Of a DNA stretch of 13,518 nt, positions 1 through 10,328 are shown piece after piece. Under the pieces are notes generated by a model that did not search any database, was not told the DNA's origin, and saw only the letters and a program-made list of their open reading frames with translations. Source of the stretch: Planctomycetota bacterium (GTDB lineage Bacteria; Planctomycetota; Phycisphaerae; UBA1845; PWPN01); contig JACQVT010000420.1 of the NCBI GenBank assembly GCA_016209665.1, forward strand, positions 1 to 13,518, given 5' to 3'. Within the stretch, counting starts at the first letter, position 1; each line of letters starts with the position of its first letter. A program made the position numbers and the translations under genes.

Positions 1-2726
1 ACCGGCCTCGGCATTGACGGGGAAGCGAATCTCCAGCGGCAGGCGGAACTCCTGGCCGGGCTGCAAGGCGAAGGTGGCCCGCGACGGGCGGATGTCCCAG
101 TTCTCCGGCCCGACGATCCGCAGGGTGCCGCTGATCGGCTCGCGGTAGGTGTTGGTGAAGACCTGGTCGCGCGTATCCGTCGAGAAGCTGGCCTCCACGA
201 GCGAGGGGGACAAGCGGAACCGCCGGCGAAACTCCATCAGCCAGGTCGGCGTGTTCACGACGAACGACGGCGTGGGGCCGACGCGCAGCACCTGCCGATC
301 GCCCACGGTCTCGATGCGCGTGCGGCGGCCCCAGACGTCCACCTGCTCGGCGTCCTCGCCGAGGTAGAGAACATGGTCGCGGCCTTCGGGCGGGGCGTAG
401 TCGTCCCAGACGAACAGGACGGCCTCGCCGTTGCGGTCGAACACCAGGCACTCGGCCTGCCCGTCGATGTTGGTGCGCGAGACGGGCACGGTGTTGCCCA
501 GCAGGTCGGCCACGGTCCGCAGGATGAGGTACTCCTCGCGGGGGTTGACCTGGGTGGTCGCCAAGTCGGCCTGCACGTCCCACGGAGCGGCCACGAAGAC
601 CGCGCCGGGATTGAGGAAGTAGGTGCCCGCCAGTCGGCGGGCGTAGTCGGCCAGGCGCACCGGGCGCGGGTAGTCGGCCTCGCCGAGCGAATCCAGCGTG
701 ATCCAGGTACGACTAGAAACGGGAAACTCGAAACTAGAAACTAGAGGCCGTCTCCTGTTTCCTGTCTCCTGCCCCGGGCCCCGGGCCTTGTTGTCCATCA
801 GCGGGCCCACGTGCCGGGGGATCTCGTCCGCGGTGACCGAGGCCGGAACGCGGACCGACCGGTAGTCTCCGAAGGCCTCGGTCGCGGGCGGATAGAGCGT
901 GGAGGTGGGGGCGGCCAGCATCGGCTCGCTCATCAGCGGCGCCATCTCGTGCCGGAGCGTGGCGAGCAGGCGGGGCAGCCGGTGGTCGAGATAGATCGAG
1001 TCGTCGCCGTCGGCCCCCACCTGCCAGACGTGGATCAGTCCGGTGTAGCGCGACCACGTGCCGGCGATCAGCGGCTTCCAGGCCAGCGGCGACTCGCTGA
1101 GCAGGTCGATCATCGAACGCATCGAGCCCCGGGCCTCGGGACCCGGCAATCGGGATCCGGGAATCGGCAATCGGGAATCGGCAATCGGGAATCGACCGCC
1201 GATCGCCGATTCCCGATTCCCGATTCCCGAACCGCGTTCTTGGAGCTTGCCGACGGGGTCGCCGCCGGATTCGACGATCGCCTGAAGGTAGCCGTCGACC
1301 GCCTGGGTCACCTCGAAGGTCTCGCCGGTGATCGCCCGTTGTGCGTACCAGACGGGGAGCTTGACCAGTTCGGGCCGCACGCGGCCCAGCAGCGCGCGTT
1401 GGCCGGGCAGGGCGGCGGGAGCGATGTCGTCGAGCACGACGCCGAAGCCGCGTCCCGCCGACTGCGGCGGCGAGAAGGCCTCCGGCACTCGGGCAAACCG
1501 CAGCGTTCGCCAGACCAGCGGCACGTCCTGCGTGCTCGCCTCGAGCCGCACGTCGTACAGGCCCACCGGCAGGCCGTCGATGACGGCCGGCTCGGGCCCC
1601 GATGCGCCGGTGAGGATGGGCACCCCCCGCTCGTCGCTGAACGCGCCATCGGCGGATCGCACGGTGAGCTTGGCCGACAGGTTCAGCCCGTCCGGGTCGG
1701 TAATCTCGGGGTACAGAACAACCGGCTCGTTCTCGCCGAAGACATTGCCCGGACTCGCGGATTTCAGGGCGATCCGGGGCAGCCGATAGACGGTGATGTC
1801 GTCGAACCAGGCGGTGGCCCGGACGTCTTCGCGCTGGATGCTGTGCGGCGTCGGCGGGCGATGGTCCCACACCCGCTGCTGGGTAAGCCAGACTGCCAGG
1901 CCCATGTAGCGGGCGTCGGGCACGTCGCCCAGCATTCCGATCTGGATCGGCCGCCAGGCCGTTGCGGGCTCGTCCCCCGCCAGGGTGGTCGGGGCGGCCG
2001 TGCTGCGCCCAAGGGCTACGCCGTGGCGAGTCGAATCGCCCATGCCGCCGACCCTTGACGCGCCGGCGATGCGAAGCGTCGGGCCTTCGGCCCCCGAGCG
2101 CAGCTCGCCCGGTGTGTCAAGGGCGACCAGCTCGCTGGTCCGTTCGGTGCCGGCCAGACGGTTCCCGTTGCGGTCGAGGAAGAACACCGTGAGGTAGGCC
2201 CGGGCTCCGCTCAGGTGGGCCGTCTTCACCCAGGCCACGACGAGATAGTCGCTGTTCGGCCGAACGGCGATGTCGTTGCCCTCGTATTGGTAGGCCAGCG
2301 ATCCGCCGTCCAGGTCGAGGCGGAAACTCGGCGCGGAGGCGTGACCCACCTGCGGATCGAATCGCCCTTCCGGTAGGCCGGGAAGCCCTCGGCCCGCAGC
2401 GGCCGCCAGTTCGTGGGCACCGTGCCCACGTTGTTGAGCGGGCGTTCGTTGAAGTCGAAGTGCTTGATGATCCGCCGGCCCGAGATGGGCTCGCGAACAT
2501 CCAGCTTCGCCTCGCTCTCGCCAGGGCGCAGCCCTTGGGCGAAGCCTGGCGGCCGTGACAAGTCCGCGGGCTGCGATGACTGGCCCGGCAGATTCAGCGC
2601 CGGCAGCAGCGCCAGGGCCAACGCCGAGCAGACAATCCTGCCCCATGCCGGTGTCGTGACCGCTCCCTTACGGTCGCGGCTCGTGCATCGCCAACGGTCG
2701 CGGGGCGTCCGTCGCATACTGGGCAT
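1..2726 (-). CDS. Secreted multidomain protein, carbohydrate-binding and hydrolase-like, C-terminus off the left edge, one frameshift
   Basis: I joined two reading frames by eye. The first runs from the ATG at 2726 down to about 2365; the second continues without a stop from about 2364 to position 1, about 909 codons in all. The start is supported by GGGAGAAGG just upstream on the minus strand. A hydrophobic stretch at residues 31-46 looks like a signal peptide after an unusually long basic leader. Residues about 85-320 form a beta-sandwich-like, CBM-type region ending in WFDDITVYRLPRI. The middle, about 320-830, resembles a glycoside-hydrolase barrel plus sandwich (for example VLFVWDDYAPPEG), but I cannot assign a family or catalytic residues. 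The last visible part, with ISGTLRIVGPENWDI, resembles a NEW3-type sandwich. At least five repeat elements lie inside the frame, most of them adding residues without stops. A single missing base near 2363 breaks the gene: either a real pseudogene or a sequence error. Function unknown; probably an exported carbohydrate-active protein. Confidence 0.7.
713..778. repeat. Heptad-phased repeat inside the secreted protein gene
   Basis: On the plus strand the sequence is made of seven-base units: CTAGAAA, CGGGAAA, CTCGAAA, CTAGAAA, CTAGAGG (713-747), then after CCG, TCTCCTG, TTTCCTG, TCTCCTG and CCCCGGG (751-778). The second half read in reverse (CAGGAGA, CAGGAAA) resembles the first half, so the element is an imperfect inverted repeat. 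The host reading frame passes through it without a stop, adding about 22 low-complexity residues between ...MDNKAR and RTWITLD. Confidence 0.7.
1145..1228. repeat. 84-bp heptad-phased hairpin element inside the secreted protein gene
   Basis: Twelve consecutive seven-base units make this element. Seven are variants of GGGAATC/GGCAATC (1145-1193), one is a spacer GACCGCC (1194-1200), then GATCGCC and three GATTCCC (1201-1228). The GATTCCC arm is the reverse complement of GGGAATC, so about 28 bases can pair on each side of a short loop. The length is exactly 84 bp, or 28 codons, and the host frame on the minus strand stays open across it. Confidence 0.85.
2006..2030 (+). repeat. 25-bp dispersed repeat, copy 2 (plus orientation)
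   Basis: The sequence CGCCCAAGGGCT-R-CGCC-S-TGGCGAG matches the reverse complement of 2517-2541 at 23 of 25 positions. It lies immediately next to the cloverleaf-like element at 2047-2128 and is read within the same host gene, in the antisense direction relative to copy 1. Confidence 0.6.
2047..2128. mobile_element. Cloverleaf-forming palindromic element, inserted in frame (MITE/REP-like)
   Basis: Outer arms 2052-2066 and 2109-2123 pair over 15 bp with two G-T wobbles; they begin CCCTTGAC and end GTCAAGGG. Between them are three small hairpins, each with a three-base loop: 2067-2081 (loop GAA), 2082-2092 (loop TTC) and 2095-2107 (loop GCA). Together they draw a four-way junction. A near-perfect 7-bp direct repeat (GCCGACC at 2047-2053, GGCGACC at 2122-2128) flanks the element, and its period of 75 bp equals 25 codons, so the host frame is kept. 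The arms resemble those of the element at 8757-8829. Confidence 0.75.
2356..2370 (-). other. Frameshift point in the left-edge secreted protein gene
   Basis: On the minus strand, coding sense changes frame here. Upstream the protein reads ...AEGFPAYRKG. Downstream the sensible frame is RFDPQVGHASAPSFRLDLDG, which needs one extra base (AAG GGG CGA TTC instead of AAG GGC GAT TC). The site is a short C run on the plus strand (2365-2367), so a one-base undercall is plausible. Downstream, 788 codons remain open in the new frame with sensible protein composition, which argues for a recent change or a sequencing error rather than an old pseudogene. Confidence 0.75.
2517..2541 (-). repeat. 25-bp dispersed repeat, copy 1 (minus orientation)
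   Basis: On the minus strand this reads CGCCCAAGGGCTGCGCCCTGGCGAG in pieces CGCCCAAGGGCT and CGCCCTGGCGAG. It matches 2006-2030 at 23 of 25 positions in opposite orientation. It lies in a local inverted repeat, CGCCAGG (2519-2525) with CCTGGCG (2545-2551). In the host protein it encodes the segment PPGFAQGLRPGESEAK between the signal peptide and the first folded domain. Confidence 0.6.
2655..2703. repeat. Palindrome and 10-bp direct repeat in the leader of the secreted protein
   Basis: CGTGACCG (2655-2662) pairs with CGGTCGCG (2671-2678) over 8 bp with one wobble, loop CTCCCTTA. ACGGTCGCGG occurs at 2670-2679 and again at 2694-2703. In the host protein this gives a basic stretch (RDRWRCTSRDRKG) ahead of the hydrophobic signal core, which explains the unusually long leader. 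I recall closely similar GACCGTAAGGGAGCGGTC palindromes from planctomycete genomes, but cannot verify that here. Confidence 0.5.
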
Positions 2727-8423: not shown

Positions 8424-10328
8424 ATGAGAGTTGATCGACGTATGCTGTTGTGCGTTCTGATCTGTACACCGACGTGGGCGCAGAGTGGCGGCCCACCCGC
8501 TGATGCGGACGTCCTGCGTACGCTCAGGTCGGGTCATCCGCGGCTGCTGGTGCTCGACGAGGACTTTGCCCGCGTCCGGGAGCTGATCGAGACGAACGCC
8601 GACGCGCGGCGGCTGCATGAGGGTCTCGTCAAGTACGCCACGCGGGTGCTGGACGACGAGCCCGTGGTGCACCGGCTGATCGGGCCGCGTTTGCTCGACC
8701 AGAGCCGCACGTGCCTGCACCGCGTCAGCACGCTGGCCGCTTTGTACCGGCTGGACGGCGACCCTTTACACGCGACGGGACGCGAAGCGTCCAAGAGCGA
8801 CGAAGTCGCGTCGCGTGTAAAGGGCGACCGGCGGTTCGCGGACCGGGCGATCAAGGAGATGCTGACCGCGGCGGCGTTCCCCGACTGGAATCCCAGGCAT
8901 TTCCTTGACACGGCGGAGATGGCCAACGCCCTGGGCATCGGCTACGACTGGCTGTATGACGTGCTGTCCGCGGAGCAGCGCCGGGCCATTCGCACCGCCA
9001 TCGTCGAGAAGGGGCTCACGCCCGGCCTGGCCGTCTATCGCAAGGGCGGCTGGTGGGCGGACGCCGTCCACAACTGGAACCAGGTCTGTAACGGCGGCAT
9101 GACCGTCGGGGCGCTGGCCATCGCCGACGAGGAGCGTGCCATCGCCGCCGAGGTGATCGGTTTCGCCCGCCGGTCGATTCCCCGGGCAATGGCCACGTTC
9201 GCACCGGACGGCGGCTGGCCTGAAGGCCCGGGCTATTGGAACTACGCGACGCGCTACACCGCGTACTACTGGGCGGCGCTCAATACGGCGCTGGACAACG
9301 ACTTCGACCTGAAATCGATGCCAGGCTTTGCCGACACCGGTTTGTTCCGGATTCACTGCGAGGGTCCGACGGGGCTGGCGTTCAACTACGCCGACGGGGG
9401 CAGTACGGTCGGCGGGTCGGGCCAGATGATGTACTTCGCTCGCCTGTTCGATCGACCCGTGTATGCCGCCTATGCCCGCGAGCATCGGTCGGACACCGGC
9501 GTGTTCGACCTGCTGTGGTACGACGCCCGCGGGACGGCCGCGGACATCGACAAGCTGCCGGCCGCGGCGTGGTTCCGGGGGATCGACGTGGCGTTCCTGC
9601 GGAGCAAGTGGCACGATCCGGCGGCCACGTTCGTGGGGTTCAAGGGCGGAGACAACCGGGCCAATCACAGCCACCTCGATCTGGGCACGTTCGTGCTGGA
9701 CGGGCAGGGCGAGCGGTGGGCGGTCGAACTCGGCGCCGACGACTACAACATGCCCGGCTACTTCGGGTCGCAGCGATGGACCTACTATCGCCTGCGGACC
9801 GAGGGCCAGAACACGCTGGTCATCAACGGCGAGAACCAGGACCCCAAGGCCAAGGCCCCGATCGTGGCGTTCGATTCGTCGTCCGATCGGTCGTTCGCGG
9901 TCGCCGATCTTTCGGCGGCGTATGCCAAGCACGCCCGGCGCGTGCAACGGGGCGTGGCCCTGCTGGATAGCCAGGCGGTGCTGATCCAGGACGAGATCGA
10001 CGCGGCATCGCCGGTCGAGGTGGCGTGGTCGATGCACACCACGGCCGCGGCGGAACCCGATGGCCGAGACGTTATTATGACACTCAACGGCAAGACGATG
10101 CGGGCTCGCGTGCTCGAGCCGGCCAGCGCCGCCTGGACGGTGGAAGAGGTCAAGCTCGATCCGCCGCTAAAGCCGTTGCGGGACACGCGCAAGCTGATGC
10201 TGGGGCTGCGGACGGAGGGCGCGGCATCTCGGATCGTGGTGCTCATGTCGCCGGGGGCGGCTTCGGCGGCCGCGGATGCGCCTGTGGTCAGGCCGCTGGC
10301 CCAGTGGTTGCAGCCGGTGGGCGGCTGA
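8424..10328 (+). CDS. Heparinase II/III-like exported protein (putative polysaccharide lyase)
   Basis: A 634-residue protein with a signal peptide (residues 1-19, likely cut after TWA). An alpha-helical toroid-like region follows, to about residue 380, with HNWNQVCNGG at 216-225. Next is a beta-sandwich with the heparinase II/III signature NHSHLDLGTF at 414-423 and GQNTLVING. Relatives cleave uronate-containing polysaccharides by beta-elimination; the substrate is not predictable here. Residues 114-135 are not part of the fold: they are encoded by an inserted palindromic element, and removing them restores LYRLDGD-RRFADRAIKEM. The gene lies 183 bp after the DUF1343 gene in the same direction, with repeats between, so co-transcription is possible but not certain. 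Only a weak ribosome-binding sequence (GGGTGATG) is seen before the ATG. Confidence 0.85.
   Translation: MRVDRRMLLCVLICTPTWAQSGGPPADADVLRTLRSGHPRLLVLDEDFARVRELIETNADARRLHEGLVKYATRVLDDEPVVHRLIGPRLLDQSRTCLHRVSTLAALYRLDGDPLHATGREASKSDEVASRVKGDRRFADRAIKEMLTAAAFPDWNPRHFLDTAEMANALGIGYDWLYDVLSAEQRRAIRTAIVEKGLTPGLAVYRKGGWWADAVHNWNQVCNGGMTVGALAIADEERAIAAEVIGFARRSIPRAMATFAPDGGWPEGPGYWNYATRYTAYYWAALNTALDNDFDLKSMPGFADTGLFRIHCEGPTGLAFNYADGGSTVGGSGQMMYFARLFDRPVYAAYAREHRSDTGVFDLLWYDARGTAADIDKLPAAAWFRGIDVAFLRSKWHDPAATFVGFKGGDNRANHSHLDLGTFVLDGQGERWAVELGADDYNMPGYFGSQRWTYYRLRTEGQNTLVINGENQDPKAKAPIVAFDSSSDRSFAVADLSAAYAKHARRVQRGVALLDSQAVLIQDEIDAASPVEVAWSMHTTAAAEPDGRDVIMTLNGKTMRARVLEPASAAWTVEEVKLDPPLKPLRDTRKLMLGLRTEGAASRIVVLMSPGAASAAADAPVVRPLAQWLQPVGG
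8757..8829. mobile_element. 66-bp palindromic element inserted in frame in the heparinase-like gene
   Basis: Perfect 16-bp arms, 8762-8777 (CCCTTTACACGCGACG) and 8809-8824, enclose two small hairpins with GAA loops: GGACGC/GCGTCC (8778-8792) and GCGAC/GTCGC (8797-8809, overlapping the right arm by one base). This draws a three-way junction. The direct repeat GGCGACC (8757-8763 and 8823-8829) flanks it and looks like a target duplication. The period is 66 bp, or 22 codons, with no stop. Precise removal leaves an uninterrupted, sensible protein. It is a non-autonomous MITE- or REP-like element; no transposase is nearby. Confidence 0.85.

Follow-up and report, generated by a model that had tools for sequence, protein, structure and literature searches.

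Palindromic elements inserted in frame in planctomycete genes share their ends with putative autonomous elements encoding a small GIY-YIG nuclease

Small palindromes that lie in frame within protein genes as well as between genes are described for Rickettsia as RPEs, which measure 105–146 bp and can leave the translated product of the gene active; the available part of the review lists their target duplication as unknown, and states that experimental support for the movement of small elements by transposases is absent (PMC2229807). REP and REPIN elements comprise a GTAG or CGTC tag beside a 20–40-bp palindrome (PMC3733652, available part). In the rRNA genes of CPR bacteria, small GIY-YIG insertions occur that belong to neither the group I nor the group II introns and seem to stand outside homing, and CPR rRNA insertions of all kinds lie mostly at the top or base of a stem-loop; the available main text mentions neither inverted repeats nor duplications for them, with 0 occurrences of either term (PMC11270868). 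As to what moves protein-coding palindromes, the present analysis links them to a candidate engine other than a transposase through shared ends, target duplication and joint occurrence in genomes. Among the matches listed in the open-access literature, none concerned GIY-YIG elements of bacteria that possess terminal repeats together with miniature derivatives.

The palindromes described here resemble RPEs in occurring both in frame within genes and between genes (25 and 10 of 61 copies, respectively). By description they are set apart from RPEs, as the first-pass annotation of this DNA had proposed for their design, by a length of 62–81 bp (62–77 bp in the own genome), several hairpins, exact 3–4-bp duplications and a candidate engine. 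The likeness to RPEs drawn in that annotation was apt and incomplete, since the nearest kin by ends and duplication are small GIY-YIG nuclease elements. With bacterial MITEs they share a short length, terminal inverted repeats, the lack of a gene, target duplications and ends common to a coding element, namely putative autonomous GIY-YIG elements found in 3 genomes other than their own; unlike in MITEs, that coding element encodes a GIY-YIG nuclease in place of a transposase, and the inner hairpins are strong. Mitochondrial double-hairpin elements, compared by description, are likewise small mobile double hairpins, but organellar. REP/REPIN elements have in common with them short palindromes and single-stranded DNA folding, but the present elements end in CCC..GGG with variable duplications in place of a GTAG or CGTC tag, and no association with PF01797 was found, including flanking of RAYT genes at the 4 RAYT loci read. 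Homing endonuclease elements are copied by homology into a single cognate site, whereas the sites here are dispersed and carry short duplications. Nucleases of the UPF0213/Slx1 type have the same fold and domain as the enzyme discussed below, but belong to chromosomal genes of repair type or unknown role and are not described between terminal repeats in the available part of their report (PMC1564403). The palindrome alone is a variant form of a known kind, the protein-coding palindromic MITE, and the novelty lies in the proposed class of GIY-YIG elements.

The window, the whole stretch of 13,518 nucleotides of planctomycete DNA that was analysed, contains a gene for a 634-residue heparinase II/III-like protein with Hepar_II_III_C and DUF4962 domains. 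The first-pass annotation had read an in-frame palindromic element with a target duplication in this gene, and the sequence anatomy and the empty sites in homologues bear this out. The features are as follows.

8424–10328, plus strand: host gene, heparinase II/III-like; the insert forms residues 114–135
8757–8763, plus strand: left direct repeat GGCGACC, unambiguous core CGA at 8759–8761
8762–8824, plus strand: palindromic element of 63 bp, CCC..GGG, three-way junction; net gain, duplication included, 66 bp
8762–8776, plus strand: left outer arm CCCTTTACACGCGAC, with TTTAC where the family consensus has TTGAC
8778–8792, plus strand: inner hairpin A, GGACGC-GAA-GCGTCC, GAA triloop
8797–8809, plus strand: inner hairpin B, GCGAC-GAA-GTCGC, GAA triloop
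8810–8824, plus strand: right outer arm GTCGCGTGTAAAGGG
8823–8829, plus strand: right direct repeat GGCGACC, unambiguous core CGA at 8825–8827

The outer arms pair perfectly over 15 bp, or over 16 if position 8777 pairs with 8809, which otherwise closes hairpin B, and the two inner hairpins are separated by the spacer AAGA. Because the CC and GG of GGCGACC overlap the element ends, only CGA is unambiguously duplicated; the palindrome with two GAA hairpins noted earlier therefore stands, while its size is corrected from 66 bp to 63 bp with a 3-bp core duplication. The net gain of 66 bp corresponds to 22 residues (114–135). DNA folds of the 63-bp element gave z = −8.4 and −8.5 for the two strands, with 0 of 200 shuffles in each case, and the RNA fold of 8740–8850 gave z = −4.6. 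A known RNA family was considered and rejected, a search of 8600–9000 against Rfam returning two weak matches far below the gathering scores.

The 22 residues are absent from 8 of 8 aligned heparinase orthologues of related genomes (8 of 11 loci were taken into the alignment), and from all 119 other homologues among the best 120 of 4973 listed. The orthologue L097 carries the empty site TACCGGCTGGAGGGCGACCGACGGTTCGC with a single GGCGACC, so that the site before insertion can be reconstructed exactly, as had been anticipated, and the predicted lack of the residues in close relatives is confirmed. The predicted structure places the insert between helices 91–111 and 136–150, with a block pLDDT of 51–59 (residues 111–130) at the insert and a mean of 92 for the whole model; the heparinase probably folds around a low-confidence insert loop. 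An identical peptide is inserted in another ORF, C781, which matches the heparinase at residues 112–135 only (a looser alignment spans 84–137 at 61%). A conserved or chance protein segment that is not mobile is hardly conceivable, given that the residues occur in 0 of 119 homologues and that about 60 copies exist in the genome, one of them encoding the identical peptide in C781.

A blastn search of the own genome with the heparinase element returned 32 matches at E ≤ 1e-10, the query itself included. After exclusion of L027, L030 and one of two L004 copies, 29 of the 32 oriented elements were aligned and used to build a covariance model, which gave 101 matches over both strands at about 60 distinct places. 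With opposite-strand duplicates and three partial hits left out, 63 places were obtained, of which 61 copies were read, two in C230 being set aside. Further copies are thus present in the own genome, as the first-pass annotation had supposed, with more in related genomes, and neither of the outcomes that it took to speak against mobility, homologues sharing the residues or the lack of a second copy, was seen. Both sides had changed in 9 of 26 base pairs, against a shuffle mean of 2.5 and at most 3 in slid controls; the covariation and the roughly 60 copies rule out a chance palindrome.

The own-genome copies are 62–77 bp long and contain no gene, and arms are present in all 61 by construction of the search. 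The heparinase element belongs to a broader group whose members have two or three inner hairpins. Two hairpin loops are predicted in 37 of 47 copies of 62–64 bp with RNA parameters (41 of 47 with DNA parameters), and three in 8 of 13 copies of 69–77 bp. Three loops are also predicted in all 8 copies of 80–81 bp with the same ends (L258–L264), which lie on seven IMG/VR contigs classed as viral; their duplications measure 4 bp in five and 3 bp in one, and the two copies without duplication may represent one insertion because their flanks are mirrored. Phage records contained no match to 8740–8850. Across 397 genomes of the class Phycisphaerae, a gapped palindrome pattern was detected in 19, all of the same order, and the reversed control gave 0. 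The related genome G002 had 50 palindrome matches.

With the element boundary fixed at CCC..GGG, an exact duplication was scored in 49 of 61 copies, of 3 bp in 34 and 4 bp in 15; the other 12 lack one, some showing near-matches. The heparinase copy belongs to the 3-bp class, and sister copies of 62 bp have 4-bp duplications. CGA, TCG, TGG and CCA account for 25 of the 34 3-bp duplications and CTGG for 8 of the 15 4-bp duplications, and the targets are preceded by G in 36 of 49 and followed by C in 39 of 49. Two composites of 129 bp (C835, C631) consist of one copy within another (63 + 66 bp), and some copies in the relatives G002, G005 and G010 sit, by reading, in the TTC or GAA hairpin loop of other repeats. 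Hairpin-loop targets were considered for ordinary genes as well and rejected, as pairing beside the duplication was about that expected from column composition. As a separate observation, L107–L133 of G002 are palindromes of 64 or 66 bp with common flanking sequence, which points to multiplication of larger repeats containing a nested copy. At L137 (G010:C110, 119–839), near a contig start, four element sites lie within about 720 bp, including a copy that sits within another one's TTC loop.

Gene context was counted with a self-trained hexamer model, which replaced a weaker codon-usage frame caller. Among the 61 copies, 25 lie in genes with the frame kept, 1 causes an apparent frameshift, 25 lie at gene edges and 10 between genes. 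The earlier description as a coding-region element therefore applies to the 25 copies within genes and not to the family as a whole, which is not purely of that kind. The host frame is free of stops in all 25 coding copies. Length and duplication together are divisible by three in 45 of 49 copies, comprising 23 of 63 + 3, 12 of 62 + 4, 4 of 69 + 3, 4 of 72 + 3, and one each of 71 + 4 and 74 + 4; the exceptions are three of 62 + 3 and one of 64 + 4. The rule holds for 22 of 26 copies outside genes versus 23 of 23 in genes (Fisher p 0.11), and since copies outside genes follow it too, it seems to reflect the mobile lineages themselves more than survival at individual sites. It is broken in some copies of relatives (64 + 3, 62 + 3, 75 + 4, 72 + 4).

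By reading, four of the six phases of the consensus are open, and on each strand one phase of the end CCCTTGAC runs into a TGA. Of the 18 coding copies with canonical ends, none uses this closed phase (7e-4 if phases are equally likely). In the two coding copies that do use it, those of the heparinase gene and C781, both ends read TTTAC/GTAAA, so that the stop is gone and the phase open; in the heparinase reading phase, it is the change of TTGAC to TTTAC in the left arm that removes TGA. C725, a truncated copy with TTTAC, shares this phase but was counted among the gene-edge copies. Net lengths divisible by three, phases free of stops and the two-sided change of TTGAC to TTTAC offer a testable case of a mobile element turning harmless to genes.

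In G010, paired ends 336 bp apart, with CTGG on both sides, enclose a single ORF for a stand-alone GIY-YIG nuclease (PF01541, E 4e-14), which lacks its stop and reads on into the host gene. It has 453 relatives and no NCBIfam match. With 13 candidates scored per genome, close homologues (E ≤ 5e-48) were found in 3 of the 397 class genomes, from three families, and all three lie between 15-bp CC(C/A)TTGACACGCGGC repeats, one with a mismatch. The elements of G010, G052 and G018 measure 336, 334 and 333 bp, have the GIY-YIG gene as their sole gene, and are flanked by CTGG or CCAG duplications, as are the 62-bp sister palindromes. From their sequences, they are taken to be putative autonomous members of the palindrome family. 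All three genomes are among the 19 of 397 bearing palindromes (p is roughly 1e-4 under independence of the genomes, an assumption that does not hold). In each element, the left end pairs exactly with coding sequence around the start codon over 11 bp (12 bp in G010) to form a hairpin, and G052 shows two compensatory differences; 11 bp was reached in 0 of 900 shuffles. The three elements read in this family do not have lengths in threes, and their 4-bp duplications, shared with the 62-mers, differ from those of the 3-bp class of the heparinase copy. Internally the palindromes consist of hairpins with no discernible trace of the nuclease gene, and the link is made by the ends. The own genome (77.6% complete) showed no close GIY-YIG gene, its only match being a UvrC-sized protein of 498 aa, and plasmid records held 7 entries with GIY-YIG proteins, all below 60% identity. 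By reading, the flanks of L196, a distant relative in viral contigs, are without such ends. A decayed GIY-YIG fragment at L213 (G051:C103, about 1550–1663) adjoins an GTCAAGGG end and is apparently a remnant of an element of this family.

A scan of 54 GIY-YIG loci for an inverted repeat combined with a duplication found no such combination in 47, and two of the loci, L233 and L238, led to a second family. Here, GIY-YIG genes lie between TCCMGTTARACC ends in other families of the class, with the end pattern TCC(A/C)GTTA(A/G)ACC, different from that of the first family, and derivatives of about 100 bp (L265–L284, L229, L233, L238). These ends are strongly enriched in 4 of 10 genomes, with 26, 16, 13 and 7 sites versus 0, 2, 0 and 1 in the reversed control; of the other six, two had one or two sites, with controls as high, and four had none. 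Exact 4-bp duplications, mostly TTCA/TGAA, flank 18 of 23 elements picked for two facing ends at short distance, including 2 of the 3 with a GIY-YIG gene (L265 being the exception). A GIY-YIG-like peptide (E ≤ 0.001) was detected in 7 of 19 short elements, versus 9 of 380 shuffles, so that some of these look, from their sequence, like internal-deletion derivatives. L214 and L216, also GIY-YIG loci, have other inverted repeats with short duplications, which may be chance hits or further families.

The nuclease has about 91 residues and is of UPF0213/Slx1 type. Residues Y6, Y16, R26, H30 and E62, which we take to be catalytic, are invariant or nearly so in 44 sequences. Its model has a pLDDT of 90, and the nearest solved structures are UPF0213 1zg2 (E 7e-5) and 1ywl (E 0.0017), both termed bacterial members of the Slx1 family in the available part of the report (PMC1564403). 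Slx1 structures, whose entry titles mention branched DNA, are weaker matches (E 0.02–0.2).

We consider it quite probable that the palindromes are MITE-like and are moved by a GIY-YIG nuclease of the Slx1 type that acts on DNA in folded form. We infer both the role of the nuclease and each catalytic step. In the proposed pathway, the element ends and inner triloop hairpins would fold, as an extruded cruciform or as a single strand, into a branched structure, which the nuclease would cut at the boundary of ends and flank. The nuclease would also make a staggered cut at a short target, G-(3–4 nt)-C, and host repair would join and fill the ends, giving the 3–4-bp duplication. The palindrome would be a non-autonomous miniature element inserting with that duplication, and with net lengths mostly in threes and four open phases, insertions in genes could survive as extra loops. 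By analogy, the position of CPR insertions would fit the folded-DNA scheme. On balance, and with a little more reserve, we favour a new class of transposable element whose sole enzyme, a stand-alone GIY-YIG nuclease (Slx1-type, about 90 residues), would move its own 265–336-bp element and a swarm of miniatures, many of them multi-hairpin, via branched folded DNA; in one lineage, the miniatures would have settled on frame-sparing lengths and spread as new peptide loops in proteins. If true, some stand-alone GIY-YIG genes found in metagenomes, one of which has 453 relatives, would be tiny mobile elements under names such as 'putative endonuclease'.

It is unlikely that a conventional transposase not captured in the draft genomes moves both palindromes and GIY-YIG elements, with the nuclease as passenger or helper. 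DDE elements typically combine terminal repeats with short duplications of fixed length, the genome assemblies are drafts in fragments, and in 16 of the 19 genomes with palindromes no close GIY-YIG gene was seen among the 13 candidates scored in each. However, the non-palindrome CCCTTGACNCGC sites read in three genomes, with five unpaired sites (three in G005, two in G010) left out, yielded one long pair, the GIY-YIG element, and in two families whose ends differ no gene other than GIY-YIG is present. An insertion sequence with the same ends was also sought at the sites read, the same five apart, and none was seen.

Spread of an RPE-like palindrome independently of GIY-YIG, for example by template switching at folded DNA, with GIY-YIG genes captured between the ends, is decidedly improbable. 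It would accord with in-frame and intergenic copies, as described for RPEs (PMC2229807, available part), and with the nested copies of G002, G005 and G010, which occupy hairpin loops of other repeats, but the exact duplications and narrow target preference suggest a dedicated cutting enzyme, and the GIY-YIG remnants in short elements of the second family also argue against it. Very improbable indeed are REP/REPIN elements moved by a RAYT (Y1 HUH) transposase: PF01797 genes are present (4 in G000, 8 in G005 and 15 in G010), but G002 has none matching despite its many copies, the 4 RAYT loci read out of 27 matches lack paired CCCTTGAC ends (a single end occurs in two), the ends bear no tag of the REP/REPIN type, and duplications are present, which are not expected for the RAYT mechanism.

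The window contains a second copy of the element, located as follows.

1–2646, minus strand: host ORF of the second copy, running off the window
2052–2123, minus strand (orientation from the host ORF): second copy, 72 bp, with CGA/TCG duplication at 2049–2051 and 2124–2126

The net gain of 75 bp corresponds to residues 175–199 of the ORF, and these 25 residues are exactly absent from 6 of 6 aligned orthologues. The lowest-energy DNA fold of this copy is a long imperfect hairpin. Two other stretches of the same ORF drew attention. A further in-frame insert, 23–24 residues long and missing from all 6 orthologues aligned, is located at about 1963–2031. It coincides in part with an inverted repeat that pairs with 2517–2559, seems to contain triloop hairpins, and is perhaps another palindromic family. 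Not found in 6 of 6 aligned orthologues either, GGGAATCGGCAATCGG-type palindromic repeats at about 1144–1245 form an in-frame insert of roughly 26 residues.
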